A stretch of 64,000 bases of DNA from Erythrobacter sp. SD-21 (lineage in GTDB: Bacteria > Pseudomonadota > Alphaproteobacteria > Sphingomonadales > Sphingomonadaceae). The stretch spans positions 62,001 to 126,000 of the forward strand of contig NZ_ABCG01000007.1 of the NCBI RefSeq assembly GCF_000181515.1. Direction: 5' to 3'. Below, piece after piece: positions 40,676 to 60,837 of this stretch (positions within the stretch are counted from its first letter, which is position 1; every line of letters begins with the position of its first letter). The notes under the pieces were generated by a model. That model saw only the letters and a program-made list of their open reading frames with translations. It was not told the origin of the DNA and did not search any database. The position numbers and the translations under genes are program-made.

Positions 40676-41613
40676 ATTTCGGGCAGCTTCCCGCTGAACA
40701 CCGACCAGCTCGTGCGTCGAGCAATCTGAGCAAGCGCCTTGGCGCCCAGCAGGCTCGTGCCCGCGCGGTTCAGCCCCGGCGACCACACCGCGATGGCCGC
40801 CCTCCCCGGCACGCTAGCGAGAATGCCGCCGCCCACACCCGACTTGCCGGGAAAGCCGACTTCGAAGGCGAACTGGCCCGAATTGTCGTAATGGCCGCAC
40901 AGGAGCATCAGCGCGTTGATCCGCCGCGCTCTGCTGGCGCTGCACATCTGCTGCCCCGTAACCGGATCGGTCCCATCAAAGGCGAGGAAAAGCGCGCTCT
41001 CGGCCAGCTGGCGGCAGCTCATGGCGAGGGCGCATTGACGGAAATAGACCGAGAGAACATCCTCCACCGGGTTCAGCAGCCGCCCAAAATCGGCAAGGAA
41101 CCACGCAAGACTGCGATTGCGCGAACCAGTCTCGCTTTCGCTGCGCGCCACTTCGGGATCGAACCGGATCGCTTCGTCGCGTCCCATCCGTTGAAGGCGC
41201 ACGAGCAAATCTCCGACCGCCTCGTCGGGCGAGCGGTCGCCGATGAAGCGGTCGGTCGTCACGATGGCACCGGAATTGATGAAGGGATTGCGCGGGATGC
41301 CCTTTTCGCGTTCCAACTGGACGATGGAATTAAAGGCGTTGCCCGAAGGCTCGCGGCCCACCGCATCCCACAGGGCCGGCCCCTCGCGCTCCAGCGCGAG
41401 CGCCAGGGCGAAGACCTTGGAAATCGACTGGATCGAAAACGCCTCGTCGGTATCGCCCGCGCAGAAGACCTCGCCGTCGCTGGTGGCCAGCGCGATGCCG
41501 AACTTGTTTGGGTCCACCAGCGCCAGCGCCGGGATATACCGCGCGGGGTTGCCGCTGCCGCGCTCGTCGGCCAATTCTGCCCAAGTTTCGGAAACGATTG
41601 CGCCCAGATCCAT
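40672..41613 (-). CDS. glsA: Glutaminase A
   Basis: A 313-residue serine-dependent amidohydrolase turning glutamine into glutamate and ammonia. It has the beta-lactamase-like catalytic S-x-x-K (Ser63, Lys66 in [10 protein letters not shown]), [13 protein letters not shown], and [13 protein letters not shown] with the C-terminal Lys-Ser-Gly. Length is normal. I take the ATG at 41613 ([11 protein letters not shown]) over an upstream one with a basic extension. The following tRNA-Thr lies 93 bp away on the other strand. Confidence 0.95.
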
Positions 41614-41706
41614 GTTCGGGCGATTAGACCTGCGCAAGCGGCAGCGCAATCGCACTGGACGCGCGGAGCATTTTCCGCCAGAGGCGCGCCACCATAACCA
41701 TTACGT

Positions 41707-41782
<76 letters not shown>

Positions 41783-41788
41783 CCTCAT

Positions 41789-41868
41789 TGTAGGGCGTCA
41801 GAACAAATTGGACGATGTCTAAGATGTTTGGACAAAATATTTAACGCAGGCGCCCCTTGTCCAATTTG
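41789..41868. repeat. Candidate Tn7-like transposon end next to tRNA-Thr
   Basis: Six bases after the tRNA, the sequence TGTAGGGCGTCAG begins and is followed by three related motifs: CAAATTGGAC (41804-41813), TTTGGACAAAA (41827-41837) and inverted GTCCAATTTG (41859-41868). A TGT terminus followed by repeated transposase-binding motifs is how Tn7/Tn5053-like ends look, and decayed transposition genes follow. The opposite end was not found in the window. Confidence 0.5.
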
Positions 41869-42086
41869 CTAAGATTTTAAAGTGACGTCCTCTTTCAACT
41901 TGGAGGCATACGCGGATTAATTTCCTCAACGGCGATATTTTCCCTGGCCAGTTTGGCCTAGTGGAATCGTGGGGCTACTCAATATTATTCCAGCAGTTGA
42001 GACCCGATTGCTATGGGGCTCGCTTGCCTATCCGGACAAAAATGAACCACCGTCGAGGATCGCTAGGCCTGTTCGTTTTGTTATGA

Positions 42087-42681
42087 CCGACGCTGGCAAA
42101 GAGCGCCGAGAGAAGCTCTACCCGGACGGCCAAGTACCAGATCCGTCGGGATCCGTTCGATCTTTCCGAGGTCTACCTGTCCAATCATCAAGCGAACGAG
42201 GTGATAGAGGTCCCGGTCGCCGATCGCTGGCGCCATTATGCGCAGAACCTATCACAGCACGAGCATCGGCTTTGCCGCGAGCATGAACTGGTCCGCGAGG
42301 GACAGAGTAACGACCCAACAGCACTCTGGAAGGCTTGTGGCGCTGATCGAAGCTGGCAAGGGCCAGCTGAGGCAGCATCGTGGCAAACAGTTGGAGCGAA
42401 ATTTGACACGCTGCCTTTACGGCGAAAGCTCGCTTTTGCTGGAAAGTACCTTGCAATCGTTTCCCGCGACTTCAGGAGGCGATGAACCTATCCCGCTCAG
42501 TTCTGTCGCAGAGGAACCCACCTTCATTCATTAGGTCAAGGACCAGCCGTATCAAGCGGATGACGTTTTAAGTCCCCAGAACACCTCGCCTTCTGTCGAA
42601 TTCTCCGCCTCGAACCACGACATCGACGACATAATTGCACTCGCTGCCGCGGTGAAATCAGCGAGCAGAAAGGATGCCTGA
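42087..42681 (+). pseudogene. Remnant of a Mu/TniA (TnsB-like) transposase, C-terminal domain
   Basis: One frame reads AKYQIRRDPFDLSEVYL, then VIEVPVADRWRHYAQNLSQH and DPTALWKA. This is the pattern of the Mu-type transposase C-terminal beta domain (R-x-D-P-x-D-L-S-x-V-Y-V, then a 'tL-w' segment). The homology moves to another frame near 42,330 (VALIEAGKGQLRQHRGK) and later crosses an in-frame TAG (42532-42534) before ending in TGA at 42681. The DDE catalytic core is missing altogether. I call it a decayed 3' end; an alignment is needed to be certain. Confidence 0.45.
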
Positions 42682-43630
42682 CCTTCGTGACCACACCATC
42701 GCCGAGCGTCAGACGAAGATGAACGATAGCTTCGTCGAGCATGCGAACCATCAAGAAGCAACGAGAGCGATTCAGCGCTTCCACAAACCCGTTGAGGGTG
42801 GACTGCATGGCCGGGGAAGCATTTGCGCACTTATTGGTGAAAGCAGGCCCGGCAAAACCTACGGAGCGTCGGAAATCCTCCGCCATAATGAAGCCCAGAT
42901 CGGCGCCGATGGCATCAAACGTCTGAAACACGATCCTACGCCCACCGAGTTGGCCAAAGAAGAAGCGGATCAAAAAGATCGCGAGCGTCGATGGAAGAGG
43001 AGTGGCTGGAGACCCGCTCCTGCCTCCAGTTTCACCCGCCATTGGCGGCAATGGGATTATACGCCGACCGGCAAGGTAACATTCGAATTCGATATCTTTC
43101 TGCGTAGCTCTTCGTCGATCCGGCGCTCGTTTAAGGATGCCAAAATTCAACGCCTCGAGAACATGGCGAGCGAGATCGGAATTGCGATGGCCGTACTCTC
43201 CGAGGCGAAGCGAGAGGATCAGATTTGCCAAGAACAGGAGAGGAAACGGGCGATGGATATCGAGGAGCGACGGTTGGTAGCGTTACGGCGACATCACGTC
43301 CATAATCGTCGCCTTGAAAGCCTTGAGAGGGTCGCGGCCCGCTTCGAGAAGCGTGATCGGCTGAAGACCCACGTTAAGTTTCTTTCGCGAGAGAAAGGGA
43401 CTTCCCTTCCTCCGAGAACGGCAAAGGACAAGGAATGGCTTGAAAATGAACTCGGGAAAGCGGAATTGGCGGTCACAGTCGACGGGGTGGAAGGGTTGTT
43501 CGAGAGCGAAGCCCTATTCGCTAGTGACGAAGAACAAGGCTTCGACCCACCGCACTGCACCGCACCGCACCGCACCGCGGCTGGTAGCTCTAATCGCAGC
43601 AATACGAAAAGAATAAATGGTGCCCCATAG
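42674..43630 (+). CDS. TniB/TnsC-like ATPase fragment joined to a coiled-coil C-terminus
   Basis: A 318-residue frame. Residues 17-70 (NDSFVEHANHQEATRAIQRF, then ICALIGESRPGKTYGASEIL) match the start and Walker A loop of TniB/TnsC transposition ATPases, but Walker B and the rest of the AAA+ domain are absent. From about residue 115 the sequence changes to a WDYTPTGKVTFEF module and a long charged coiled coil (EERRLVALRRHHVHNRR), like C-terminal parts of unrelated hypothetical proteins. Overlap with the transposase remnant keeps the tniA-tniB order. It is probably a deletion chimera, not a working TniB. Confidence 0.45.
   Translation: MPDLRDHTIAERQTKMNDSFVEHANHQEATRAIQRFHKPVEGGLHGRGSICALIGESRPGKTYGASEILRHNEAQIGADGIKRLKHDPTPTELAKEEADQKDRERRWKRSGWRPAPASSFTRHWRQWDYTPTGKVTFEFDIFLRSSSSIRRSFKDAKIQRLENMASEIGIAMAVLSEAKREDQICQEQERKRAMDIEERRLVALRRHHVHNRRLESLERVAARFEKRDRLKTHVKFLSREKGTSLPPRTAKDKEWLENELGKAELAVTVDGVEGLFESEALFASDEEQGFDPPHCTAPHRTAAGSSNRSNTKRINGAP
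43548..43579. repeat. CACCG pentanucleotide repeat
   Basis: Five to six near-perfect CACCG/CGCAC units lie in the 3' end of the TniB-like chimera (protein PPHCTAPHRTAAG). A pentamer tract can slip and shift the reading frame of the last 20 codons. Confidence 0.65.
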
Positions 43631-43829
43631 AAGACAAAAATGGGCACTCAAATCATTGGGAAATTTCGGTCCCACGCCCTTAGAACGTCACGGTTGTCTG
43701 CCTAGCAGTGCTTGTTGAGAGCGAAGCGATGGCATTCGTGATCAGCCTATGGCGGCACCACCTGCAATTGGTGCAAAAACATTTCTGGCCATGAATTGGA
43801 AGGGTCTGAGGTGAAAGGATGCCTCAAGA

Positions 43830-44402
43830 GTGAAAGACATATTGACCCAAACCGATAGGCGCGTTGCGATCCTTGATATTGAAGCCTCAGCCTTGGGTGC
43901 AGGGAGCTATCCGATCGAAGTCGGCGTGGCGCTGGTTCAGGGTGGGCCAAAACCGATCGAAACCGGGGCAAGGATTATCCGCCCGACACCTTCGTGGCGG
44001 AAGAGCGGTACTTGGTCCCCGGCATCGGAGGCAGTCCACGGCCTTTCGGTCGAAACTCTCAATCAGCACGGTCATGATCCAGGCGAGGTTTATAGTTGGC
44101 TCAATGCCCTCCTCGGGCAGCACGTGATCGTGGCTACGGATGCTCCCAGATACGATCAGGACTGGCTCGACAGATTAATCGACGCAGCGGGTCAGGAACA
44201 GCAATTCACGATCTACCACTTCGAAGTGCTTACACACGGCTTCAGTGCAGATCAGCATAGCCACCTGGCCTATCTGTTGCGGCGCTCACCAATCCCTCAT
44301 CGCGCAGCGCCTGACGCCTTACGGCTAGCCACCAAATTGATGGAGGCTCAGTTGGGCTATCCTCCACGTACCGCACCGATGGAACCGACGACCTCCGATT
44401 AA
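43830..44402 (+). CDS. DnaQ-like 3'-5' exonuclease (DEDDh)
   Basis: A 190-residue exonuclease. The motifs are Exo I DIEAS (Asp16, Glu18), HGLS at 70-73, APRYDQDWL (Exo II/III Asp) and the C-terminal H-x4-D (His157, Asp162 in PHRAAPDALRLA), so it is the DEDDh type. It is a stand-alone domain like small repair or defence exonucleases. The start is GTG 43830 with AAAGGA about 8-12 nt upstream. Its 3' end and the trailing 55 bp recur imperfectly at 48561-48660. Confidence 0.85.
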   Translation: MKDILTQTDRRVAILDIEASALGAGSYPIEVGVALVQGGPKPIETGARIIRPTPSWRKSGTWSPASEAVHGLSVETLNQHGHDPGEVYSWLNALLGQHVIVATDAPRYDQDWLDRLIDAAGQEQQFTIYHFEVLTHGFSADQHSHLAYLLRRSPIPHRAAPDALRLATKLMEAQLGYPPRTAPMEPTTSD

Positions 44403-44454
44403 GGCGGTCCCCTGCCCCTTTCCAATCACAAACGGCAAGAATGGGGCCGAGAGC
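44372..44454 (+). repeat. Direct repeat, copy 1 (3' end of exonuclease gene)
   Basis: From CGCACCGATGGAACCGAC through the stop codon to CCAATCACAAACGGCA and GGCCGAGAGC. The same order of blocks occurs at 48561-48660 with scattered mismatches and a ~17-nt insertion. Copy 1 is part of an intact gene end (APMEPTTSD), so it is the likely parent copy. Confidence 0.8.
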
Positions 44455-44649
44455 AGTCAGTCCGGTAATGATTGCTTTGGCAGGGACAGCTGACATTCGG
44501 CTAACGACCCGGATTGCGACAGTCCGCTATTAGTTCAAGTCTGGTGCAAGGGTCGATGGAAGGTCATAAGCTATAAAGAATTTACGATTGTGCTGTCTTC
44601 TGCCATTCACTCTGGAAGCTGCTCCAGCCCATAAAAACACGGAAAAGAC

Positions 44650-46812
44650 ATGACGACTGCTGTTCTGATCTTCCAGGCCTTCGTCATATTTACGATCCTG
44701 GTCACGCGTATCGTCGCCACGGACAAGTTGGTCCTAGTTTCCATAGCATGGACCATTTTTACCTTGGCCATGGTTTTTGCAACGCCGCTCGTGCTCCTGC
44801 AGTTGGCGGTAATCTGGGTTACCTACAGCATCGTAGCGCCGAAACATCGGCCAGACGAGCCCAACTTTTTGCCGCCGCCTGCCAGCCCTCCCGCAAAGCT
44901 CCACAGTCACAAAGCGACGTCGGGTTCGAGGGCTCAAAACAAAGGCTCGCCAGCGATTTCCCTTTCTCAAGGTACTCGTAAATCTCCTTCCAAACAGACT
45001 TCTGACAAGCAATCATGGCAATCAGCAGCTGCGAGGCTTTCGACGCAGACAAAGTATAGCAATATGGAAAATGCTAACCGGGTCGCTATCTTGAAAAGCC
45101 TGGGCCAAGACCAAGCGGTTCGAATTATTGAACGTTTTCAGCCGGTCTCGGAAAGTTTGCTCGAGCGGTATGTGGAGCACTGGGATTGGGGTGCCCTTTC
45201 TAGCAACCCGGACTTACCTTGGTCGGTTGAGCTGATCGAACGATACGAGAAGCGCTGGGACTGGTCTTCTGTGTCCCTCAACCCAGGTTTACCGTGGTCA
45301 GTTGAACTGCTCGAACGATACAAGGATCGCTGGGTGTGGTCGTCTCTTTCGCTCAACCGAGGTTTGCCGTGGTCGGTCGAACTGCTCAAACTATACAAAG
45401 AGCGATGGACCTGGGGTGACCGTGGCCTCTCCCTCAACCCGGGTTTGCCGTGGTCGGTTGAGCTGCTCGAAAAATACAAGGATCGCTGGAAATGGGATCA
45501 CCTCTCGGACAACGAGAGTTTGCCTTGGTCGCTAGATCTGCTCGAACGATATAAAGAGTATTGGGACTGGTCTTCTATCTCCCTCAACCCTGGTTTGCCG
45601 TGGTCAGTCGAACTGATCGAACGATACAAGGAACGCTGGGAATGGGGTGACTCGGGCTTACCCCTTAACCCTGGCTTGCCATGGTCGAGAGAGTTGATCG
45701 AGCGGTACAACGATCGCTGGAAATGGGAGCATCTCTGCCAAAATTCGGGTGTACCTTGGTCGGTCGAAACGCTCGAACGACATAAGGAGCGCTTGGACTG
45801 GCCTACTCTTTCTCGCAACAAGGGTTTGGCATGGTCGTTAGATCTGCTCGAACGATACAAGGAGCGCTGGGACTGGTCTTCTCTATCACTTAACGCCGGT
45901 TTGCCTTGGTCGGTCGAACTGCTCGAACGATACAAGAACCGCTGGAGATGGCAGGCATTTTCACGCAACAAATTTTGGGCTTTTCTCCGGCTTCAAGACT
46001 TCGACATCATCGAAATCATGGAGAAGGCTAATAGGCCGAAAGCGGACACTAAAACCCAGCCGCTACCCTCAATCTATTTGGCTCCGCATTCGATTGACGA
46101 GCGGGCCAAACCGCCTCGATCGGACGGATTCCAGTTTGGGAGCAGGGAAATTGGCCATCTTGTGCATTTCACCCAAGCCGAAAACCTCGCCTCGATCATG
46201 CAAAACGGCATCCTTTCCGTCTCGTCTCTTCGACGGCGCGGTATCAGCTTCCGACAAAATGATATCTCCAGGTATGACTACCAAATAAATGCCAGTTCGT
46301 TGAGCATCACACACCCGAACGAGAAATTGTTCTATAAATGGCGAATGGAAGACCCCTCTCAAGATTGGGTCGTTCTCCTGATCGAATCATCCATCCTGCG
46401 CCGGCGAGATCTAGCCTTTAATATCCACAATGCGGCCGATAAACGCATGAGTTCAAGGCCGCTATCCGCAAGGAAAGGGGTCGATGCATTCGAAGGTATG
46501 TTCGCTGAGATTGATGGGTTCGCAAAAAGAGCGGAGCTGGGATTACGGGATCAGGATACTACTGATGTGCAGGCAGAAGTGCTCGCCTTTCAAAAAATCG
46601 AACCGCGGCTGATCCTCGGTGCTGTCTTCGACAGCCTTGGGGCAATGGCGAGGTATAGCAATATTTTAGGCAATAGGGATATTTCGTGCGTGCAACCCAA
46701 TACTGGCCTGTTTGGCGTGCGAGAATACAACTACGGTCTTGTAAGAAGCCCGTTTCGGCACACGGGTTCCCGTACTAACAGCGGCAACTTGGGTGACGAC
46801 ATTCAATTTTAA
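44650..46812 (+). CDS. Membrane-anchored W-x-W repeat protein with DarT-like ADP-ribosyltransferase domain
   Basis: A 720-residue protein with three parts. Residues 4-62 hold two or three hydrophobic segments (VLIFQAFVIFTILVTRIVA; LAMVFATPLVLLQLAVIWV). After a Ser/Pro/Lys linker, residues 171-445 are 11 tandem units of 25-27 residues with the consensus ERYK-x-RW-x-W-x2-LS-x-N-x-GLPWS-x-ELL. Residues ~497-665 match DarT (DUF4433): VHFTQAENLASIMQNGIL, ISRYDYQ, KLFYKW and AEVLAFQKIEPRLILGAVF, with His506, Arg541 and the probable catalytic Glu643. DarT enzymes attach ADP-ribose to bases in DNA. The NADAR gene starts 8 nt after the stop, so this is the toxin of a toxin-antitoxin or anti-phage pair. 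A GGAAAAG ribosome site precedes the ATG. The membrane and repeat parts are unlike DarT proteins I know. Confidence 0.8.
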   Translation: MTTAVLIFQAFVIFTILVTRIVATDKLVLVSIAWTIFTLAMVFATPLVLLQLAVIWVTYSIVAPKHRPDEPNFLPPPASPPAKLHSHKATSGSRAQNKGSPAISLSQGTRKSPSKQTSDKQSWQSAAARLSTQTKYSNMENANRVAILKSLGQDQAVRIIERFQPVSESLLERYVEHWDWGALSSNPDLPWSVELIERYEKRWDWSSVSLNPGLPWSVELLERYKDRWVWSSLSLNRGLPWSVELLKLYKERWTWGDRGLSLNPGLPWSVELLEKYKDRWKWDHLSDNESLPWSLDLLERYKEYWDWSSISLNPGLPWSVELIERYKERWEWGDSGLPLNPGLPWSRELIERYNDRWKWEHLCQNSGVPWSVETLERHKERLDWPTLSRNKGLAWSLDLLERYKERWDWSSLSLNAGLPWSVELLERYKNRWRWQAFSRNKFWAFLRLQDFDIIEIMEKANRPKADTKTQPLPSIYLAPHSIDERAKPPRSDGFQFGSREIGHLVHFTQAENLASIMQNGILSVSSLRRRGISFRQNDISRYDYQINASSLSITHPNEKLFYKWRMEDPSQDWVVLLIESSILRRRDLAFNIHNAADKRMSSRPLSARKGVDAFEGMFAEIDGFAKRAELGLRDQDTTDVQAEVLAFQKIEPRLILGAVFDSLGAMARYSNILGNRDISCVQPNTGLFGVREYNYGLVRSPFRHTGSRTNSGNLGDDIQF
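45160..45984 (+). repeat. Eleven tandem 75-81-bp coding repeats
   Basis: Each unit encodes R/K-W-x-W, a S-x-N-x-G-L-P-W-S turn and a V-E-L-L/I-E-R-Y-K helix. Units four and seven carry a two-residue insertion (WGDRGLS, WGDSGLP); the last unit is incomplete (RWRWQAFSRNKFWAF). The DNA copies are diverged, so it is a protein-level repeat array, not a recent expansion. Confidence 0.9.
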
Positions 46813-46820
46813 GGGAGCTT

Positions 46821-47525
46821 ATGGCTGAAAGACCGATCTTCATCCCAAACATTAGCGGGCGTGCTGCAGTGACGACCCGAATGGTAAGCTTCGAGTGGCA
46901 CCCGGGGATGTCGCTGTCTCAAAAACAGAAATCAATTGCTTCCCTGCACCAGGCCGCAAGAGAACAATGCCAAGGCATCGAGAAGATTCTGGAAATTTCA
47001 AGTAAGTCTCTTGAGGATCTGGGAGTGCGGTCCAGCGCCTTCAACTTGAAGTGGCTTTCCTCCGTCGCGAACTTCCCGATCAGCGTTGAATGTGCCTTCC
47101 AAGGAAGCAAAGTTTTTTTGAATGGAGGTCCGTTTACCGATCTTTATGAGGCGCGCCCGATTGATGCGAAGCGTGATGTGCGATTGCGATCGTCGGGCAA
47201 CCTAAAAGCATTTGATTTTGATGGAGGGAACTGGCCGATAGAACCGCAAACAGCATTTTATGATTGGCTATATATTTCTGCGTTGAGAGAAAATCCGGAA
47301 ATTGCTGATGCCATCCTTAGTTTCGATGGTTTCACCGACATTGAGTTCAATCCGAAGAAGTCCATCAACTGCCAAGCTTACTCGGCGGCACTTTTTTGCT
47401 CACTTTACAAACAAGGAATGGTGGACGAAGTCCTCGAAAAAAGAGAGACTTTTCTCAATTATTGTAGGTCGCTGGATGTAAGCAATGCGCGACAAGATGA
47501 CACTATACAAGGAAGCCTTTTCTAA
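46821..47525 (+). CDS. DarT-associated NADAR-family antitoxin
   Basis: A 234-residue protein beginning RPIFIPNISGRAAV, followed by FEWHPGMSLSQKQKSIASLH, VECAFQGSKVFLNGGPFTDLY (91-109), DAKRDVRLRSSG and EPQTAFYDWLYISAL. This is the pattern of NADAR proteins that accompany DarT1-type toxins and remove ADP-ribose from guanosine. A GGGAG site lies 5-6 nt before the ATG. The 8-bp spacing from the DarT gene and the same strand indicate one operon in toxin-antitoxin order. No second macrodomain antitoxin (DarG) is nearby, which points to guanine rather than thymine as the target (inference). Confidence 0.82.
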   Translation: MAERPIFIPNISGRAAVTTRMVSFEWHPGMSLSQKQKSIASLHQAAREQCQGIEKILEISSKSLEDLGVRSSAFNLKWLSSVANFPISVECAFQGSKVFLNGGPFTDLYEARPIDAKRDVRLRSSGNLKAFDFDGGNWPIEPQTAFYDWLYISALRENPEIADAILSFDGFTDIEFNPKKSINCQAYSAALFCSLYKQGMVDEVLEKRETFLNYCRSLDVSNARQDDTIQGSLF

Positions 47526-47962
47526 CCATTCCGCAAAGATGTTAGGCACAGCTTGACGCGCAGTAGGGCGGAGATTTGGCGTCGCTGCTTCAGGCTATTT
47601 TAGCTCCGCGACAACCTATGAGGCATTCAATACGTTCTGCGCGATGGGTGTTCGGTGCATCCTTAGTTTGTCGCCTTTTGACCCAGAATTTTATTTAACT
47701 GCGACTGGTCTCCTCAATGGCTGAACTTACGATAGCTATGGGCCACAGAAATCGCAGTCCCATCGTCAGAGAGAACTATATACGCATTCTCCAGGCGGTC
47801 ACGTCGACTTGACGCTACCTCTGATTTTCCTCCAAGTTGGAGTAGAGATCGTCCTTCCTTAAGGGCAGACCCTAATCCCAGCTGTTGGAAATCTGGGGGT
47901 CAAATCAGGGCGGCTAATAACGTGGCTTGTACCTAGTGAACTTTAAATCAGCGGGGCGAACA
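47526..47962. other. Gene-free stretch after the DarT-NADAR pair
   Basis: No convincing coding frame on either strand in 437 bp. Base composition is lower in GC than the core. It presumably carries the terminator of the pair and the promoter of the next gene; I see no strong hairpin. Confidence 0.5.
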
Positions 47963-48454
47963 ATGACCTTTGATGTCGACACCGGGAGAAAGCCCTCGTG
48001 CCCCTTTTGCGACCTGCCGGAAGAAGATTGGGAGGACTGCCCCCACCTAGTGGCCGTCTTCGACCGTACCTTTCTTGATTGCTATGGTGGGGAGATCTTT
48101 GACCGAGACGGCGAGTTCCGAGACCTTGTAGAAGCGGCTTTCTCGAAGCGCCTGAAAGGCGCAGAAAGCGTAGCCTTCGAGAAGGCAGATCTGGAGCGCC
48201 TTTGGCAGCAATCCAAGTATGAGCAAGCTAGCCAAGCTGGAGAGGAGAGCTACTGGGACCTGAATGATCGCATCTTTCAGGAGCTTCTGATCGAAAGGCT
48301 GCTCGCTGCAGGCGCGAGGGCATTACCAGGACGCTGCGAGGATTCCACTCCGTTGGCTTCTTCGGTGTACACTATTCTATTTGCCACTTTCCCACGGATA
48401 GTAATCTTAAAGGCACTCCAGCTTTTGGTCGAGGAAACGATATTGAGCGAGTGA
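47963..48454 (+). CDS. Hypothetical protein with N-terminal Cys/His cluster
   Basis: A 163-residue unrecognised protein. The N-terminus has SCPFCDLPEEDWEDCPHLVAVFD, a CxxC...CxH arrangement that could bind one zinc. A charged helical middle (LERLWQQSKYEQ) and a hydrophobic C-terminal helix pair (TILFATFPRIVILKALQLLV) follow. The start is uncertain: ATG 47963 is preceded by GGGGCGA, but the frame is open to a TTG at 47927 (YLVNFKSAGR) that could be a real extension. It stands alone between the NADAR gene and the second repeat copy. Confidence 0.6.
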   Translation: MTFDVDTGRKPSCPFCDLPEEDWEDCPHLVAVFDRTFLDCYGGEIFDRDGEFRDLVEAAFSKRLKGAESVAFEKADLERLWQQSKYEQASQAGEESYWDLNDRIFQELLIERLLAAGARALPGRCEDSTPLASSVYTILFATFPRIVILKALQLLVEETILSE

Positions 48455-48807
48455 AAGGCGTGAGGAAGGCTCGTGCCATTTTTATTTAGGCGATGAGACC
48501 CGAGGTCGCATTTCCCGTCTTATAGGAGCCCGAGCACCGAAGAACGGGCGGCATGCGCAACGCACCGATGGAACCGACAACCTACGATTAAAGTCGGTGC
48601 CCCTACCCGTTATCGTCGCGAGAAGAGTCCAATCACAAACGGCAGCAAAGGGCCGAGAGCGGGCGGTAAGCTATTGGCCTATAGGTCGCAGGTCCAGACA
48701 TAGCGTTAGCCCCACGCCGGTGCTGTGTTGGGCTTGATCCTTCACCCGTGCTGGCGGTTGTGCGATTATATTTCTTCGCTAGTCTCTAATATGAGGAGGA
48801 GATCGTC
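48455..48807. other. Gene-free region holding repeat copy 2
   Basis: Apart from the direct-repeat copy at 48561-48660 nothing coding is seen. A GAGGAGG ribosome site at its end serves the next gene. Confidence 0.55.
48561..48660 (+). repeat. Direct repeat, copy 2 (remnant of exonuclease gene end)
   Basis: It matches 44372-44454: CGCACCGATGGAACCGAC, ACGATTAA at the old stop codon, CCAATCACAAACGGCA and GGGCCGAGAGC, with an extra ~17 nt (TATCGTCGCGAGAAGAG) in the middle. No exonuclease reading frame precedes it. The copies bracket 44,455-48,560, the DarT-NADAR segment. Confidence 0.8.
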
Positions 48808-49050
48808 ATGGGGATGTTTACGCCGCTAGCGGAATACTGCCGTAAACAAAAACTGAGACAGTTCGAACTGCCGTTTCACAAAATCGAGACCATCATCGGG
48901 AAGAAACTTCCCGACAGTGCCTTGAGGCCACAATATTGGGCCAACGTGGTCGCGGGGACTGGGCCGGTGCGTTCAGCCATGAAAGACACTTGCTACGATA
49001 GATTTCTGGTCGAAGGTTCTAAGCGCGCTCGGTTCGAGCGTCACCATTAG
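48808..49050 (+). CDS. Small DUF7662-like protein
   Basis: An 80-residue protein: PLAEYCRKQKLRQFELPFHKIETIIGKKLPDSALRPQYWANV, then a basic end. It resembles the short 'PL-x-x-Y-L ... F-x-x-I-E-x-I-I-G-x-x-L-P-x-S-A ... W-W-N' domain found alone or fused in many defence and restriction loci (DUF7662-type). GAGGAGG 7-8 nt upstream fixes the start. The molecular function is unknown. Confidence 0.65.
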   Translation: MGMFTPLAEYCRKQKLRQFELPFHKIETIIGKKLPDSALRPQYWANVVAGTGPVRSAMKDTCYDRFLVEGSKRARFERHH

Positions 49051-49120
49051 TTCTCTGTGGAGCGGGTGATCGAATATATTGAACAGAGTTCGCAAGGGAC
49101 TACTGGACCGTTGCTCTCTC

Positions 49121-49930
49121 CTATTCAAACGCGACTTGTGCCTCCGCAAGTCGAGCGAAATACGGGGGGGTCAAAGCGTCGATTATCGCTTGCCGTTGTT
49201 CCTCGCGCTCTACCCATAGCGTTTCAACTACCTCGTGTGTCAGAGACGCGCAGGCGACGCCCCACCAATAAGGTTCGTCGAACAGGTCATTTCGCCAAAG
49301 CGCGAGCGTTTCGTTGCCCGGTGCGTGCCAAATCGAGATAGCCTCAATCGTCCTTCGTGCTATGAACCAATCATATCGGCTCGCAAAAAGTTTCATGTCT
49401 TCCGGAGGCTGGCGCAACGCGTTCTCATAGCCTGTCAAAACGATAGAAAGAGCAGTCTTTCGATCCATTTCATCTTGCATATTACCGGTCACGATCCTCA
49501 CCATTAGACTGGCAATTTGATCGCCCCACCATTCAGGTTGATTGGCATCCTCTGAAATACACGCCGCGAACCCTTGGCCTTCGATAGACCACACACTTCC
49601 CACTTGCCGGTATCCATCTTGGGGCATGGCATGGTTTGGCTTTGGGAGCTCCAGGCTTCTCGCCGGATTGGTGTGATACATCTCTAGCCGAGGGTCTCGC
49701 AGCGTGGCGGTTACAAATTCAACATCCCCTTGCTTCCACAACAGTGTGCTCAAGGCATGACCAATCCAACGGCGCGTCGTTCTTGGTATTTCAACTGTTT
49801 TTAGTTCGGGGCAAGGTTCTAGATCGCCATTTGAGACCGACAAACAGATCGCGATTTCGGCCCCTTGAGGTAGGGGACGATAACAGAGCACTCGACCATC
49901 ATTCTCTCGGGTAATCTCAGTAAATTTCAT
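49121..49930 (-). CDS. Hypothetical protein, unrecognised
   Basis: A 269-residue soluble protein with no motif I recognise. It is rich in Trp and acidic residues (WWGDQIASLMVRIV, EPYWWGVACASL). These W-W-G pairs recur at equal intervals around residues 135 and 223, which suggests an internal duplication of a helical domain. AGGA lies 11 nt before the ATG. It has minus-strand orientation in an otherwise plus-strand stretch. Confidence 0.6.
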   Translation of the reverse strand: MKFTEITRENDGRVLCYRPLPQGAEIAICLSVSNGDLEPCPELKTVEIPRTTRRWIGHALSTLLWKQGDVEFVTATLRDPRLEMYHTNPARSLELPKPNHAMPQDGYRQVGSVWSIEGQGFAACISEDANQPEWWGDQIASLMVRIVTGNMQDEMDRKTALSIVLTGYENALRQPPEDMKLFASRYDWFIARRTIEAISIWHAPGNETLALWRNDLFDEPYWWGVACASLTHEVVETLWVEREEQRQAIIDALTPPYFARLAEAQVAFE

Positions 49931-50015
49931 CGAATATCTGATCCTGACGAGGCGCTCATCGAAACAAGCTTCTTGCGTAACTATATATCTGGAACTGAAA
50001 GACCGGAAGTTCAGG

Positions 50016-53180: not shown

Positions 53181-54446
53181 TTACGCTGGTCCTTCATTTT
53201 GCATACGTTCCCCGACAGCAAGATATTCCGAGTATGCTTTGTCCCAGTTCATTGCTGGATAAGCTTCTCGGACCGTCTCCAAGAAGCCTTCCTCATTCAG
53301 GGATTCAAACGTGAGGTCTTTGTATCGCACCTCGAGCTGCATCCGACTAATTAGTTTGTCGATCTTCGGCATGCTCTTTGCCAGTTCGTATTCTAGCCAT
53401 CGAGCCGCATGCTCTTCATCGAGCAAGGGCAATTGACCTCGCATTGCGTCAGGCGGGTTCTTGAGGACGATTGGCAAATAGTACTGGACGATCGAAGCAA
53501 GGGATTTTGACAGGTGGGCGTCGATCTGATTTTCAACCTTCTTCTGGTGCGCTTCGAGTTTCTTACGAAAGGCATCAATCCTCTCCTCAAATGCCTTTCG
53601 AACAACCTTCAGAATGACCCTTTCCCGGCCGATGGTCCGAGTGAAATCAGAGCGGATCTGGTTTAGCTCCTTTTCCAGCTCGCGAGATGACAGCGCACCC
53701 TCACTTTCTAACAGATCGAAGGTCGTCTTGAGACGGCCCTCCAAGTCCTTCCTCCCGCCTAGATCCTGAATTGCCTTGGGAATCCGCAACCTATGGCGTT
53801 GGATGGATGCACCTTTCAGACTGATTTCGACATATTGGAGCATGGCGTTGTAGACTCGAACCTGGCGGGCGACATCGAAGGGAGCAGAAGGCACGTTGAG
53901 CAGTTGCTTTTCCACTCGATCAAAATCAGCCTGCTCGACCTTGTTGGAAGTAATTTCGACCGTTCTGGTTCTGAGAGCCTCTCGCTCTTCTTCAGTCTTT
54001 GATTGCGCCAACGCGATCGCTTTCGCGGCCGGAGACAAACGCGCCAAAGCCTCCATTGCTTGATCATGCGAAAGCCGCATGGCATTTGGAGCCGTCGAGC
54101 TCCTTTCATCTGCCTCAAGGAGCAATGCTGTAGGGGTGAACATGAAGCCTTGTCGGTCAACGATAATCAGGCCTGTCCGCAATCCTGGTGCCGACTGGAT
54201 CTCAATCTTCTGATCACGCAAAAGTTCGATCGCCTCGATACTCCCATATCCCAACCGGAAGACATGCTCATCGAAGTCCAGGCAGACCGTGACAAGTTCC
54301 GGACCCAGGCGCTGAGCAACCGCAGCTATTGCTCCAGCCGGCTCGGAATGAATGCCAGGCGCAGCAAAACACAACGCCGTCTCTGTGCGGCGGATCAGAT
54401 CCGCTATGTTTCTGAAGTCTAGCGATTGGAAAAGGCAGTCAGTCAC
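53181..54446 (-). CDS. Pseudo-PLD/coiled-coil protein of the SNF2-Hsp70 operon
   Basis: A 421-residue protein. The first ~115 residues look like a phospholipase-D-type sandwich (TALCFAAPGIHSEPAGAIAA, then GLRTGLIIVDRQGFMFTPTALLLE), but the H-x-K catalytic pair is R-T-G, so the site is probably dead. The remainder is a long charged coiled coil (KELEKELNQIRSDF, RKAFEERIDAFRKKLEAHQKK) with a C-terminal helical domain. It could bind nucleic acid without cutting or act as a scaffold. Start and upstream stop share one base, so it is translated with the Hsp70-like gene. Confidence 0.7.
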   Translation of the reverse strand: MTDCLFQSLDFRNIADLIRRTETALCFAAPGIHSEPAGAIAAVAQRLGPELVTVCLDFDEHVFRLGYGSIEAIELLRDQKIEIQSAPGLRTGLIIVDRQGFMFTPTALLLEADERSSTAPNAMRLSHDQAMEALARLSPAAKAIALAQSKTEEEREALRTRTVEITSNKVEQADFDRVEKQLLNVPSAPFDVARQVRVYNAMLQYVEISLKGASIQRHRLRIPKAIQDLGGRKDLEGRLKTTFDLLESEGALSSRELEKELNQIRSDFTRTIGRERVILKVVRKAFEERIDAFRKKLEAHQKKVENQIDAHLSKSLASIVQYYLPIVLKNPPDAMRGQLPLLDEEHAARWLEYELAKSMPKIDKLISRMQLEVRYKDLTFESLNEEGFLETVREAYPAMNWDKAYSEYLAVGERMQNEGPA

Positions 54447-56302
54447 TACGTTTGTTCAGCTCCAACATACTCAGGGCCAGTGGCCTGTTTGGTTTGGAGG
54501 CGCGGAATTCTCGAGGGATTGGTCGTCGAGACAATGTCGGGAATATCATGCGCCAATCCGAACGCCAGAAGCAGTCGGGTTCGGTCGCAATCCAAGGCAA
54601 TTATCTCACTAGGTGGCGCGGGCTGATCTATGCGGCCCGGTCCAAGGGCTCTATGAGGATCCCTGAGGCGGGCAAAAAATTCTTTATGCAGAATGGAATT
54701 TGAGCCGCCACCGGTCACAACCAGATAAACGTCTTTTCGGTTTGGGTTTTTCGCCAGACTGAAATTCAGGGGGGCCAGGCGACAAGCTTGGGCAAACGTG
54801 TTGCCGAATTGATGATTACAGGCCTTGAGAAAATCAGACTTAAGAACGCCTTTATTCTGAGCGACCTCTAGGGCTGACGACCCAAGCAATTCGACGGTGG
54901 CCGAGAAAGCCTTTATCTCTGCTTCGTCTTCATCCTCGACCAAATTAAAGGCGACCATGTCCAGTGTCGATGCTCCGACATCGACGAGCACATGAGATCC
55001 CAGTGGCGAGGTCGGATCACTGGCGTAACCCACGAGCGCAGCGCTGAGTTCGGGAATGAGGTCGAACCCGTCGGGCAGATCTTCTGCGTGAACCATCTCC
55101 AATGCCGCTCGGACCATTTCGAGGGTCAAAGGTTCACAGGATCTAGCCAATTCGACAGCTGCGCGCACCACTTCCTTAAATGGCTGTAATGCAGCGGGGT
55201 TATCGCTGGTCGCAACCGGCACTCCGATATTGATAGCGAGAAAATTTTTCGCCTTGCTCCGCTCTAGAGGTTGCTCCTTCGCATACCATCCGAGCAGGTG
55301 GCAAAGGTGCAGCGCGATAAAAGCGGTGGCGCCTTCTGATCGAGAGATCTTGGGTTCGTCGAAAATGGCCTCGGAGCCGTTCCCAGCGATAATGCCCGTT
55401 TTGAAACCGTCTAGAGTAATAGCGCCGGGCGTCGGATAAAGCCGGAAGATTTCGACGGCAGGATCAAACCAAACGACCGTCTGCCACAAATACGGGTGAC
55501 CTTGGGAACGGAGTTCCACAGGCGCCGGCAGTGCCGCGAGAGGATTGCCCGCGACATAAGGGTCGCGAACCACGACCTTTAATGAACTGGTGCCAAAGTC
55601 GAAGCCCACGACAAAGCCATTGTCGAAATCGGGTTCAGGATTGTCGCGAAGCCACTCAGCTCCGCTTCGAACGGCCTCATCCAATCGCCGCGCTTCTTTC
55701 GATTGAATCCTGGTGGGCCGCTCTTCGATGGCAGGCGTTGAGGCACCCACGATCCGCGTGATGTGCGCGAACGCCTCAGCCGCGGTAAACGGCCGGGTCT
55801 CGCCTGGAATTTCGCGACGCGAAGGTTCGGGCGCTGGTGCTGGCTTGTGCGTCGGAGCGAGAGCGGGTTTGGCCGCAGCTTCGTGAACTTCCTTCACCGG
55901 GGGCTTTGGCTCGTAATGAAGCCGCCTTGCTGCTGACTGCGTCAATTGCCCCTTCGGCTGTTTGACCGGTTGCACTGGCTTGCTGGGCTTGCGGCTCGGG
56001 TCCACAGCTCGAGAGGGAAGCCTCTTTCGTGTCTCGATAATCACATGCGGCGCGTCGCGTTTGGCCGGCTTGATCTCGCGCGTCTTTGTCTGTTCGGCGT
56101 CCTCGCTCTGCGCATTGGCATCAGCGAGCTTCTGCCTGATCTGCGATTCGGGGTCGGCGACACCTGGTTCACGAGCAGCCTTTGAGCGAAAATTGGAAAC
56201 AGGTTTTTTGCTCTTGTTCTTAACGGGCTGTTTGGGTGCTTTCTGCTTTGCGACGCCAAGCGATTGCAGCTGGTCCGCTAGGCTACCGCTCGACTTGCTC
56301 AT
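54446..56302 (-). CDS. Hsp70/actin-like ATPase with long disordered N-terminus
   Basis: A 618-residue protein. Residues 1-200 are Lys/Pro/Arg-rich and probably unstructured. The ASKHA ATPase core follows: phosphate-1 GFDFGTSSLKVV (233-244), connect-1 NIGVPVAT (358-365), phosphate-2 DVGASTLDMV (441-450) and the adenosine motif VVTGGGSN (528-535). The substrate-binding domain of DnaK is absent. It likely senses or remodels a partner in an ATP-dependent way; with the SNF2 ATPase it makes a two-motor system. It overlaps the helicase gene by 4 nt. Confidence 0.82.
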   Translation of the reverse strand: MSKSSGSLADQLQSLGVAKQKAPKQPVKNKSKKPVSNFRSKAAREPGVADPESQIRQKLADANAQSEDAEQTKTREIKPAKRDAPHVIIETRKRLPSRAVDPSRKPSKPVQPVKQPKGQLTQSAARRLHYEPKPPVKEVHEAAAKPALAPTHKPAPAPEPSRREIPGETRPFTAAEAFAHITRIVGASTPAIEERPTRIQSKEARRLDEAVRSGAEWLRDNPEPDFDNGFVVGFDFGTSSLKVVVRDPYVAGNPLAALPAPVELRSQGHPYLWQTVVWFDPAVEIFRLYPTPGAITLDGFKTGIIAGNGSEAIFDEPKISRSEGATAFIALHLCHLLGWYAKEQPLERSKAKNFLAINIGVPVATSDNPAALQPFKEVVRAAVELARSCEPLTLEMVRAALEMVHAEDLPDGFDLIPELSAALVGYASDPTSPLGSHVLVDVGASTLDMVAFNLVEDEDEAEIKAFSATVELLGSSALEVAQNKGVLKSDFLKACNHQFGNTFAQACRLAPLNFSLAKNPNRKDVYLVVTGGGSNSILHKEFFARLRDPHRALGPGRIDQPAPPSEIIALDCDRTRLLLAFGLAHDIPDIVSTTNPSRIPRLQTKQATGPEYVGAEQT

Positions 56303-59300
56303 GCGGCGTCTCCAGTAAGATCGATGACCGCTATGCCAACGAGAAGGGGCTCCTCGTAGCTGAGCAGATTTTCACGCTGCCTTATCTCGTTTTCGCGAAG
56401 CTCGAGACGAGCCAGTACCTTTTGCAACTTGCCCTCAAGGGCTGGGATCAGCTTGCGTCGATTGAGGTTTTGCGAGAACAGCGCATCGGATTTTCGTTCC
56501 TCATATTTTTTGGTCTCGCGAGCGCGGTGCTCCTCGATCAAGGCTTTTTGGGTATTGACCAGGTCGAAGTGGCGGGCAGCTTCAGCATCTTCGAAATCCA
56601 AGCGCCGTTCTTCCAACCTTCCCGTCAAGACTTCTGCCGCAAGTTTATGAGCACGACCGCAATCCGCGCTCGATAGGCTTGTCATGCGCGCTTCACCGGT
56701 GAGACTCTCGATGAGAATACGTTCGGCCTGGTCCTCTTCGAGCAGCCTGTCGCCTGCGAAGGAGCACGCTGCAAAGGCCAGTTTGTCGACGGGGACGATA
56801 CCTTCAATCGACCAACGTTCGACAAGGAAGATATAGCGCCCTGAAGGAAGGCTCCATTCCGCTCGATTGGCGGTTTCAAACGCCGTTACCGGCTTTGCGC
56901 GCAGGCTTGCCTGGCGCTTATCCAATTGCTCGGCGGAGAACCGCGACAAAGGATGCGTCATTGGGATTGCTTCGATAGCGCGGTATTTCGAAGGCTGTGG
57001 ATTGCTCCCGAAGACTGACCGAACGCCGTTGGTCGCGTCGCGCGAAAACTTTGTAGGATACCGACGCGCTCTTGCATTTCGGAATTGATTGAATTCGACG
57101 TCTGCGGACGCAGAAAGCCTGATCTTGTAAGCTTCGATCTCGACATCTGAGATCGGCTCGATGCTGGTCCCTTTGTAGGCGGAAACAAGGACGTCAGCGA
57201 TGTAATCGCGCAAGTCTTCTGGCGTGAGGCGTTTGTGCGGCGCTTGAGCTTCATTGATCCGTTGAAGAATGCTGTCGCCATGAGCGATAAGACCCGGTGC
57301 TTCCTGCTCAAGCTCTTCGGCGATCGCCTTGCGTTTCTCCGCGGCGAGAACCGACCGATCGAGCTCGGCGACCTTTTGTTCTTCGGTCAGTTCGGGATTG
57401 ACGAGGGCGAGCTCGATATCGCGAATGATCTCGCCGAGAATGGGTTCAAAATCGCCCAGCGTGCTTCGAATGATCCCCAAGCGTTCATAGAGACGTTCGT
57501 AGACGCGCTCTTCGATCGTCTTCTCGGCGATGAGGTTGATAATGTCGATTGAAGGAGATTGCTGCCCAATACGATCGATACGGCCGATCCGTTGTTCGAC
57601 GCGCATCGGATTCCAAGGCAAATCCCAGTTGAAGAGGATTCGGCAAAATTGCAGGTCAAGACCTTCACCGCCTACCTCTGACGTCAACAAGACCGTGCCG
57701 GCGGGGGCGTCGGCAAAGCTATTGACGATTGTCTGTCGATCAAGATCGATCCCGCCATGGAGTTCGATCGATTCAAAGCCGGCATCCTCTAAGCGGCGCG
57801 CAAGGTAATCGATTGTCTTGCGGAAACTGGAGAAGATGATGACCTTCTCATCGGGATGGTCCTGACGGATCTTTCGCAGCCACTCCACGAGCCGCTGGAA
57901 CTTGGTATCGCTTGCCTCTAGTGAAGCGAGAACACGAGAATTATCACAAATCGCACCAAGCGTTTCAGTCAGAGGACCAGGCAGGGTCTTGTTTCCGTTG
58001 TCGTCGTCCTCATCATCGAGCGAGAGATTGCCGGTTCGGGTGCCCCAATGTCGGTAGCCGGCAGGGAGGCTTGAGGCGAGCAAGCGCTGCGTTTGCGCAA
58101 GCAGGAAACGCTCGTTGATGTCGTTGATGAGCGCATAGTTGGCGATCTCGTCGCTGGCGGCTTCGTAGAAGTCGCGTTCGACTTGCGCCATCGGCCATCG
58201 GACAGTGGTTGGACGCCGCTCGACCTTGAACTCCGCCACATCTCGCCTTCTGGTGCGATTGATGATCGTGCCGAGCAAGGACATCTCTTCGAGACGAGAG
58301 GCAATCCGCACACGATTGGCAGGCGTGTCTTCCATGCCCTTGGCCAGCTCCTCACGCAGACGTTCGAGACGCTTTCCAGTCTTTAAGACCTGACCTGCTG
58401 GAAGCTCTGAAATGAGCTCTTCAAGATCGCCGAATGACGCGCGCGGATCGCGCGCAGCTTCCCAGGCACGGACGTAAGGTTCGTTCTCATCCTGCAGCAG
58501 ATCGAAGAGCCACTCGCGTTCGAACGTATCGGGGTCGATGAGTTTGAGCAGGGCACGCAAATCGTTGGCGCGCAGATTGATCGGTGTTGCCGACAAGAAA
58601 AGCTTATGATCCGCGACCTCGCACACCAATTGGCCCAGCCGGTGGTTCATCGTGTCGGTGTTGCGAAGATGGTGTGCTTCATCGAACACGACGAGATCGA
58701 AGAGATCGTCGTCAGCCTCTTCGAGATATTTGGCGAGCTCTACGCGCGCTCCGGTTTTCTCTTCATCCTGATCCTCCCAGCCCTTGGGTGGACGAAGGCT
58801 CGGGAGCGATGCGATTGCCGCAAAACCATCGCCGCCGACACGATCATCTTTGAGGAGTTGCAGTAGCTGGTCAGCCTTGCAGACATGCGCTGTGATGTTG
58901 AACTTGTTGCGCAGCTCGTCGCGCCACTTTTCACACAGCGGTTTCGGGCAGACAATCAGCAAACGCCGACTATCGAACCGAGCAACAAGCTCGGTCCAAA
59001 CAAGACCCGCTTCGATGGTTTTGCCGAGACCAACTTCGTCTGCGATCAGCAATCCGCGCGAGGGCGAGTTGAGCAGCTTGAGAACCGGCTTGAACTGATA
59101 GGCGTGAAAGTCGGTGTTGGTCGCGCCCAGACTGTAGATCATGTCAGCCAGACGACCGGTCATCCGCAAATGCGTGATGGCGCGGCGCAGGTCAGACGGC
59201 GCGGAAAACTTGCCGTCCTTTAGGTCGGCAAATGCATCAGCCTCTTCCTGCACGATTTCGAGCTGATTGGCGGGCACGACCCGCTTCCGCCCAGTTGGCA

Positions 59301-59412
59301 GCTCGATTTTCTGAAACGGTCGCCCTCCACGCTCAGATGGAGGCTCATCAGTAACGACACCGACCACACTTGGATCATTCCGCAGCCGTACACGTGAACC
59401 AACTGGAATCAT
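56299..59412 (-). CDS. SNF2/RapA-family DEAD/DEAH-box helicase
   Basis: A 1037-residue ATPase. An N-terminal SH3-like segment (VGSRVRLRNDPSVVGVVT) precedes the Walker A DEVGLGKT (125-132), DEAH (244-247), motif III SATP, and the second RecA lobe with KVIIFSSFRKTIDYLARRL, LLTSEVGGEGLDLQFC and motif VI QRIGRIDRIGQ. The C-terminal 350 residues are charged helical repeats. SNF2 proteins of this type translocate on duplex DNA; RapA-like ones remodel RNA polymerase, and defence-linked ones act on invading DNA. It is the first gene of a three-gene operon (ATGA overlap next). A GGAGGG site lies 3-4 nt before ATG. Confidence 0.9.
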   Translation of the reverse strand: MIPVGSRVRLRNDPSVVGVVTDEPPSERGGRPFQKIELPTGRKRVVPANQLEIVQEEADAFADLKDGKFSAPSDLRRAITHLRMTGRLADMIYSLGATNTDFHAYQFKPVLKLLNSPSRGLLIADEVGLGKTIEAGLVWTELVARFDSRRLLIVCPKPLCEKWRDELRNKFNITAHVCKADQLLQLLKDDRVGGDGFAAIASLPSLRPPKGWEDQDEEKTGARVELAKYLEEADDDLFDLVVFDEAHHLRNTDTMNHRLGQLVCEVADHKLFLSATPINLRANDLRALLKLIDPDTFEREWLFDLLQDENEPYVRAWEAARDPRASFGDLEELISELPAGQVLKTGKRLERLREELAKGMEDTPANRVRIASRLEEMSLLGTIINRTRRRDVAEFKVERRPTTVRWPMAQVERDFYEAASDEIANYALINDINERFLLAQTQRLLASSLPAGYRHWGTRTGNLSLDDEDDDNGNKTLPGPLTETLGAICDNSRVLASLEASDTKFQRLVEWLRKIRQDHPDEKVIIFSSFRKTIDYLARRLEDAGFESIELHGGIDLDRQTIVNSFADAPAGTVLLTSEVGGEGLDLQFCRILFNWDLPWNPMRVEQRIGRIDRIGQQSPSIDIINLIAEKTIEERVYERLYERLGIIRSTLGDFEPILGEIIRDIELALVNPELTEEQKVAELDRSVLAAEKRKAIAEELEQEAPGLIAHGDSILQRINEAQAPHKRLTPEDLRDYIADVLVSAYKGTSIEPISDVEIEAYKIRLSASADVEFNQFRNARARRYPTKFSRDATNGVRSVFGSNPQPSKYRAIEAIPMTHPLSRFSAEQLDKRQASLRAKPVTAFETANRAEWSLPSGRYIFLVERWSIEGIVPVDKLAFAACSFAGDRLLEEDQAERILIESLTGEARMTSLSSADCGRAHKLAAEVLTGRLEERRLDFEDAEAARHFDLVNTQKALIEEHRARETKKYEERKSDALFSQNLNRRKLIPALEGKLQKVLARLELRENEIRQRENLLSYEEPLLVGIAVIDLTGDAA

Positions 59413-59758: not shown

Positions 59759-59844
59759 GATTTTTTTCCTCTTTGCTTGGTGACGAATCCAATCTACGGA
59801 AGCGGGGCGACAAAATCGGTCACCCCAGCAAGGAGCTGTGCTGC

Positions 59845-60837
59845 ATGTCATTTTCCAAAGCCGTTGATCTGCTGCGGCTAGCCATGATGGCCGGCGGACG
59901 AACAGGGGTTTGTCTCAGCGATATTGAACGTGAGTTCGGATGTGTAAGGCGAACCGCTCAACGAATGGTCGCGGCCCTGCAGGAAGCTTTTCCCGCAACC
60001 GAGCATTATGTCGGCTACGACGGCCGCCATTATTGGCGCGTCCCGGCTCGCGCTGTGGCGCCGCTCTTGTCTCCGAGCGTGGACGAACTGGTCGCGCTCA
60101 AGAGCGCGATCGAGCAACTCGACCGTGCAGGCATGAAAGCTGAAGTCCGAGCACTTAGAGAACTCGATCAAAAGGTCCACGCGCTGATCCCTAATGAAAG
60201 CTCATCGCGGCTAGCAACTGACGAAGAAGCGATCCTGGAGGCCATGGGATATGCCGCAAGGCCAGGCCCCCGCCCTGATCACGACAGCGCCGTCGACGGA
60301 GCCATTGCCGAAGCACTCAAGGGACCGTTCCGGCTGCGGATTGCTTACCAAAGCCGCGCTGACGAGGCTGCCACTTGGCGGGAGATTGAGCCGCTCGGTC
60401 TGTTGCTTGGCACACGCCGCTACTTGGTGGGAATCGACACGGCCAAGAGGGACGGACGCAATCGGCATTACAGAGTCGAAGACATCGGTGAGGCTGAGGT
60501 GCTGGATCAGAGTTTTGCGTACCCCGACGATTTCGATCTCAACGCCTATGCAGAGCGTGCCTTCGGCTCATTTCACAATGACCTGGAGTATGGCCAGGTC
60601 GTGTGGAGGTTTGCCCCCGATGCGGCAAATCAAGCAGCGCGTTTCCAATTCCACCCGTCTCAGACCAGTGAGGTTCTCGAGGACGGCTCTTTGGTGGTGC
60701 GCTTTAACGCCTCCGGCCATCTGGAAATGGCCTGGCATCTTTATGCATGGGGCGATGGAGTGGAAGTCTTGGAGCCTCCCCAGCTCGCCGAGCTCGTGCA
60801 CCCCTTTCGCCGTCACGACTTCCCAGCATACCCATGA
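59845..60837 (+). CDS. WYL-domain transcriptional regulator
   Basis: A 330-residue regulator. An N-terminal winged helix (KAVDLLRLAMMAGGRTGVCLSDIEREFGCVRRTAQRMVAALQ) leads to a WYL ligand-binding domain (FRLRIAYQSRAD, EIEPLGLLLGTRRYLVGI) and a WCX-type C-terminal domain ending ELVHPFRRHDFPAYP. WYL proteins in defence islands bind nucleotides or ssDNA and repress neighbouring immunity genes. AAGGAG about 10 nt before ATG 59845 sets the start; the longer upstream frame is not supported. A strong terminator follows it. Confidence 0.88.
   Translation: MSFSKAVDLLRLAMMAGGRTGVCLSDIEREFGCVRRTAQRMVAALQEAFPATEHYVGYDGRHYWRVPARAVAPLLSPSVDELVALKSAIEQLDRAGMKAEVRALRELDQKVHALIPNESSSRLATDEEAILEAMGYAARPGPRPDHDSAVDGAIAEALKGPFRLRIAYQSRADEAATWREIEPLGLLLGTRRYLVGIDTAKRDGRNRHYRVEDIGEAEVLDQSFAYPDDFDLNAYAERAFGSFHNDLEYGQVVWRFAPDAANQAARFQFHPSQTSEVLEDGSLVVRFNASGHLEMAWHLYAWGDGVEVLEPPQLAELVHPFRRHDFPAYP

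Follow-up and report, generated by a model that had tools for sequence, protein, structure and literature searches.

The window analysed here, 64,000 nucleotides of Erythrobacter sp. SD-21 (contig NZ_ABCG01000007.1, positions 62,001 to 126,000), carries a darT1-type gene placed directly upstream of a NADAR gene. The two open reading frames (ORFs) lie on the same strand at a spacing of 8 nt, and ORFs, coordinates and gap are all as described in an earlier note made from the sequence alone. The unusual feature of the encoded toxin is an array of W-repeats, which resides at the position held in most of the relatives compared by another middle domain. The two genes and their parts are the following.

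44650-46812, forward strand: darT1-type toxin gene, an ORF of 720 aa
44650-44859, forward strand (residues 1-70): conserved N-terminal hydrophobic hairpin, a predicted membrane anchor (hydropathy, model, homology)
44860-45147, forward strand (residues 71-166): linker from hairpin to array, mostly of low confidence in the model, with helices at residues 138-149 and 153-162
45148-45972, forward strand (residues 167-441): W-repeat array, 11 units of about 25 residues, a predicted alpha-solenoid (profile units, tandem repeat, model)
45973-46125, forward strand (residues 442-492): linker from array to toxin domain, of low confidence in the model
46126-46725, forward strand (residues 493-692): DarT1 ADP-ribosyltransferase domain
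46811-46817, forward strand: possible ribosome-binding site for NADAR, AAGGGAG, seen in the junction sequence and overlapping the darT stop codon
46821-47525, forward strand: NADAR antitoxin gene, 234 aa, of the DarT1-associated subfamily

The C-terminal domain of the toxin matches the Pfam DarT family at residues 506-677 (E 2.6e-9), and its ADP-ribosyltransferase (ART) fold is nearest to that of a solved DarT1; the domain, previously described as DarT-like, is accordingly assigned to the DarT1 class. Residues E152, N104, R52, D54 and M71 are taken as essential in the DarT1 of Escherichia coli C7 from PMC11543638. The first four correspond to E643, N594, R541 and D543 of the window toxin, and Glu643 and Arg541, to which the earlier note had drawn attention, are thus equivalents of essential residues. 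The toxin probably tags guanines in DNA. The downstream protein had been proposed to be a NADAR, and is one: it matches PF22397 (NADAR-DarT1, Pfam) at E 2e-89 with 299.1 bits (cut-off 27), and over residues 1-233 the Geobacter lovleyi NADAR 8bat (E 5.4e-75). Residues E88, K95, K115 and D171, required in the C7 NADAR (PMC11543638), are found by equal spacing as E90, K97, K117 and D173. Judged by these likenesses, NADAR would rather likely remove the tag set by the toxin, as an antitoxin. Carriage of this NADAR by phages was discarded, with 0 matches at E 1e-5 among 50,697 phage records.

NADAR loci from named genomes were sampled as the best 80 of 158. A DarT match was found in 67, a clear DarT1-type match (E < 1e-20) in 46, and no W-array was found in the ORFs of the 80 loci. 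In 14 hairpin loci compared, no gene besides darT1 and NADAR is common to all; two more clusters (10 and 9 loci) are made by reverse-strand ORFs lying over darT1 and NADAR, and were set aside. A simple promoter upstream of the pair was rejected, as a sigma-70-type scan gave 2 sites, vs 2.7 expected, both on the opposite strand.

Strong hydrophobic stretches were called at residues 1-25 and 27-65 of the toxin by a hydropathy scan, rather than by a trained predictor, and the structure model features helices at residues 2-22 and 24-62. This predicted hairpin probably anchors the toxin in the cell membrane. Homologous hairpins were identified in 12 of the 80 NADAR loci, across distant Proteobacteria: Pseudomonas (two loci), Martelella, Caballeronia, Burkholderia, Tianweitania, Phaeobacter, Rhodobacteraceae, two metagenome-assembled genomes (MAGs) of Enterobacterales, Marinicella, in which the hairpin is an ORF of its own, and Methylophaga, which gave the weakest match (28.7 bits). 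The earlier note had tentatively viewed a DarT tied to the membrane through a repeat array as a new architecture. The predicted anchor holds; its novelty does not, since the 12 loci rule out that an anchored DarT is unique to the window gene, and 16 of 19 long DarT1 proteins begin with a hydrophobic segment by hydropathy (this set is limited to 0.55-1.75 times 720 aa, which biases the anchored share to long forms). Five long relatives (P0004, P0005, P0006, P0017 and P0018) carry one N-terminal hydrophobic segment unmatched by the hairpin profile, so membrane location seems to count more than the type of anchor. Fourteen positions are invariant across an alignment of 10 hairpins picked by hand (Q9, R20, W34, T38, V42, F43, A44, P46, L47, L49, Q51, L52, I55, W56); these, polar ones included, may exceed the needs of a mere anchor. 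The survey of 385 genomes of the class yielded the window's own gene only, and that of 347 genomes of the family one further weak match. A single case of the hairpin was found before another domain, in a Salipiger plasmid protein (L083:5001-5963) which carries a DUF559/REase_MTES_1575 nuclease domain (E 3.9e-13) and no DarT. This hairpin is 41.8% identical to that of the window (E 2e-6), and the annotated start of the protein, at 5031, falls within it, the match beginning at 5001. In this one case the same tether would be joined to a different effector.

Exported effectors too can show an N-terminal hydrophobic segment and an adjacent neutraliser. The toxin might accordingly be delivered to neighbouring bacteria, the hairpin aiding translocation and NADAR serving as immunity protein. 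This is very unlikely: the 16 window proteins scanned against Pfam match no secretion-carrier family, and NADAR is the one gene beside the toxin that all 14 loci have in common.

The consensus of the array units was derived from a pattern with two fixed tryptophans. Units counted by hidden Markov model are 11, the number reported in the earlier note; at the DNA level the repeat appears as a 75-bp tandem array at 45220-45945. The model of residues 140-489 has a mean predicted local distance difference test score (pLDDT) of 87.8, and features mostly two short helices per unit; in the toxin model, pLDDT is below 50 at residues 63-167 and 439-492. In the search for W-array proteins 8000 candidates were scored, and 120 of 219 were listed. 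The 25-residue profile finds 7-24 units in each of the 120 proteins, and an origin of the array as chance or low-complexity sequence was therefore rejected. Other domains, of 18 kinds, are carried by 45 of the proteins listed, counting the window protein and P0002, a metagenomic protein which shares its architecture. Kinases, nucleases, TIR, uracil-DNA glycosylase and two kinds of DarT are among these partners. Arrays are net acidic in 116 of the 120 proteins, and because of this a protein, rather than a nucleic-acid, ligand is favoured. No Pfam repeat family was found for the window array at E 1, DUF7907, CgtA and CxC1 touching it below their own cut-offs, and PHROG 3532, of unknown function, matches it at 1.9e-16. 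Three further arrays were scanned against Pfam at E 0.1; assignment of the Salinibacter array to CaM-KIIN was rejected as spurious, because the score (53.5 bits vs a cut-off of 27) comes with no single passing stretch.

W-like repeats were seen also in phages. In the Listeria jumbo phage LPJP1 neighbouring genes (L088:3719-9709) are built largely of them, and relatives occur in six other phages larger than 220 kb. PMC10303552 names LPJP1 as a phage with uracil DNA, and three of the W-array proteins listed carry a uracil-DNA glycosylase domain, perhaps by coincidence. The Salinibacter plasmid pSR116 (L086:4614-10926) hosts two W-array genes, one stand-alone and one joined to ankyrin, which adjoin genes for a UvrD helicase and a PD-(D/E)XK nuclease.

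Middle regions, defined as the part between the hairpin (or the N-terminus) and DarT1, were cut from 31 proteins. Single-linkage clustering by BLASTP at E 1e-3 puts twenty-five of them in one group and pairs the window protein with P0002, leaving L004, L038, L045 and P0018 as singletons. Among 23 hairpin proteins, 18 carry the common middle domain. A tree built from 59 DarT domains unites the two W-array proteins in a clade (support 100/99), nested in a group of 22 proteins which all feature an extension (13 a hairpin, 4 another hydrophobic segment, 3 no recognised segment, 2 the W-array). The hairpin label changes 11 times along the tree, and at least 4 changes are forced by well-supported branches; the label "hairpin_mid" takes in L004, L038 and L045, whose middles show no homology to the common one. 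Since the W-array pair is surrounded by DarT1s with an extension, most of them anchored, the likeliest history is that an anchored ancestor exchanged its common middle domain for the array.

With moderate confidence, the gene pair is read as a two-gene DarT1-NADAR (DarTG1-type) toxin-antitoxin system and probable anti-phage module, whose toxin would be tethered at the cytoplasmic face of the inner membrane. The toxin would wait there, held by the hairpin, and NADAR would neutralise its background activity by stripping ADP-ribose from guanines. An infection cue would be received by the middle domain, as the tether, the solenoid and the variety of middle domains suggest. The solenoid array, set between tether and toxin, may bind a protein cue and so hold, place or free DarT1 near the membrane; single-stranded DNA (ssDNA) close by, from replicating or incoming phage, would then be modified, and replication would stop. 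In favour of this reading are the identities and active sites of both proteins, the hairpin conserved over distant Proteobacteria, the sharing of darT1 and NADAR by all 14 loci, the varied middle domains, and the location in a lower-GC stretch which also holds a DrmD-like helicase.

Alternatively, the array may be a passive spacer or an oligomerisation scaffold and do no more than determine how far the tethered toxin extends; NADAR stability or DNA availability would then be the trigger, as in short DarT1s. The array is indeed rather regular, differs by one unit between the window toxin and P0002 (11 vs 12), and is flanked by linkers modelled at low confidence; moreover, the 207-aa C7 DarT1 works without extension (PMC11543638). 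We consider such a role rather improbable, as 18 of the 23 hairpin proteins keep one homologous middle domain, instead of unrelated spacers, and the array is 57% identical to that of P0002, whereas the linkers reach about 30%.

Several points weigh against an anchored toxin switched on by a protein cue. Topology rests on hydropathy and on a hairpin model of medium confidence (pLDDT about 66-77 per block). In the toxin domain M71 is replaced by Leu560, and contact residues of C7 are changed, R35 to Val524 and the guanine-contacting Y75 to Trp564. Leu and Met at the M71 column, as Trp and Tyr at the Y75 column, all occur among close relatives, so that neither position is clearly DarT1-defining. 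The fork which encloses the group of 22 is weak (92/91), and is drawn open. W-arrays are also paired with domains not obviously related to defence (Hsp70, DnaJ, TPR), and the array is very rare, being found in 1 of 398 genomes of the phylum, the window's own. Finally, the window array is nearly neutral (39 K+R vs 44 D+E residues), and the argument from charge is thus weak for this toxin. Near neutrality would suit a PPR-like solenoid which binds nucleic acids and guides DarT1 to particular ssDNA or RNA; given the acidic arrays of the family, this role is judged improbable, and more so than that of a spacer.

The pair resides next to a tRNA gene, in a region which hosts the features listed below.

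41707-41782: tRNA-Thr, likely island start
43830-44402, forward strand: DEDDh-type exonuclease just upstream of the toxin (PADLOC DEDDh, E 8.8e-10; PHROG 192)
53184-54446, reverse strand: gene with a weak LeoA match (E 0.0016)
54449-56302, reverse strand: neighbour of the DrmD-like gene, no family match
56302-59412, reverse strand: DrmD-like SNF2 helicase (PADLOC DrmD, E 1.6e-226)
59773-60837, forward strand: WYL regulator

Three relatives of the same genus match the window until the end of the tRNA-Thr, and no further; their available stretches show no similarity to the contig's following 57 kb. Past the tRNA the GC fraction drops from 0.63-0.66 to 0.48-0.59. Since similarity stops and GC falls at the same place, the tRNA-Thr is likely the start of a genomic island holding the pair. 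No second copy of the last 15 or more bases of the tRNA was found in the 121 kb examined, and an Rfam scan of 41500-50000 gave nothing besides the tRNA. The DEDDh exonuclease was rejected as a third component of the system, as no homologue of it was seen in the compared flanks of the 13 other loci; W-arrays elsewhere do occur with exonucleases. The DrmD-like helicase, its neighbours and the WYL regulator possibly make up a partial or variant DISARM-like cluster.

The location bears on a further explanation, by which the toxin-antitoxin genes are of the ordinary kind, serving addiction or stabilising the island, without a role against phages. They lie in a lower-GC stretch right after the tRNA-Thr, where similarity to the three relatives ends, and DarT1-like genes were found on plasmids, one of which (AP026901) has a hairpin and a NADAR-like gene alongside. 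On the other side, DarTG1 reportedly shields E. coli from phage (PMC9967889; PMC11543638), and the DrmD-like gene resides in the same lower-GC stretch as the toxin pair. Mere addiction is thus regarded as a less likely role, on a par with the spacer.

A wider proposal is put forward tentatively, as an unlikely one. Membrane-tethered DarT1-NADAR pairs could be modular immune receptors, in which hairpin tether and DNA-ADP-ribosylating effector stay the same and the recognition part can be swapped. The W-array would be a recognition solenoid, outside Pfam families and joined by bacteria to many effectors, and the free arrays of distantly related repeats carried by jumbo phages would be decoys or competitors. 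In a version of this proposal the tether would place a modifier specific for ssDNA at the points where the cell takes in such DNA by conjugation or transformation, as a barrier to DNA uptake.

Anchored DarT1s, with constant tether and toxin and differing middles, are natural variants for locating the part which receives the signal, and could help to show how defence toxins of this kind switch on. As the W-array recurs with 18 kinds of domain among the proteins listed, the ligand of one array would inform on many uncharacterised proteins.

DarT1-NADAR pairs are toxin-antitoxin systems acting on guanine, and C7 DarT1 is a toxin against which NADAR acts (PMC11543638). Published accounts call the release trigger of DarT unknown (PMC9967889, PMC11481870). 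In the literature searched, which lacked most subscription papers and included parts of PMC11543638, PMC11125620, PMC9503650, PMC7159879, PMC11833690, PMC9967889, PMC11481870, PMC10303552 and PMC8460666, anchored or repeat-bearing DarT1s were not seen mentioned. Searches of it by words, not by sequence, gave no description of the W-repeat. Compared with E. coli C7 DarT1 (DarTG1; PDB 8baq), the window toxin has about 490 preceding residues, which make up hairpin, linkers and array; the window NADAR resembles that of G. lovleyi (PDB 8bat) over nearly its whole length. Hairpin and DarT1 homologous to those of the window toxin are found in P0003 (an Erythrobacter MAG), L003 (Pseudomonas sp. CFII64), L015 (Caballeronia arationis) and L017 (Burkholderia paludis), and in the last three NADAR is adjacent, as in the window; in all four the middle is the common domain, not a W-array. 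P0074 (861 aa) features a W-array followed by a DarT2-like domain, nearest to Thermosipho africanus DarTG 7omu (E 5.9e-9, vs 6e-5 for DarT1 8baq). Unlike the window toxin it lacks a hydrophobic N-terminal segment, and for these reasons it is probably a separate array-DarT fusion. P0002 (762 aa) has the same hairpin-array-DarT1 order as the window toxin, to which it is 67% identical in the hairpin, 66% in DarT1, and 32% and 29% in the linkers (residues 71-160 and 442-492, respectively).
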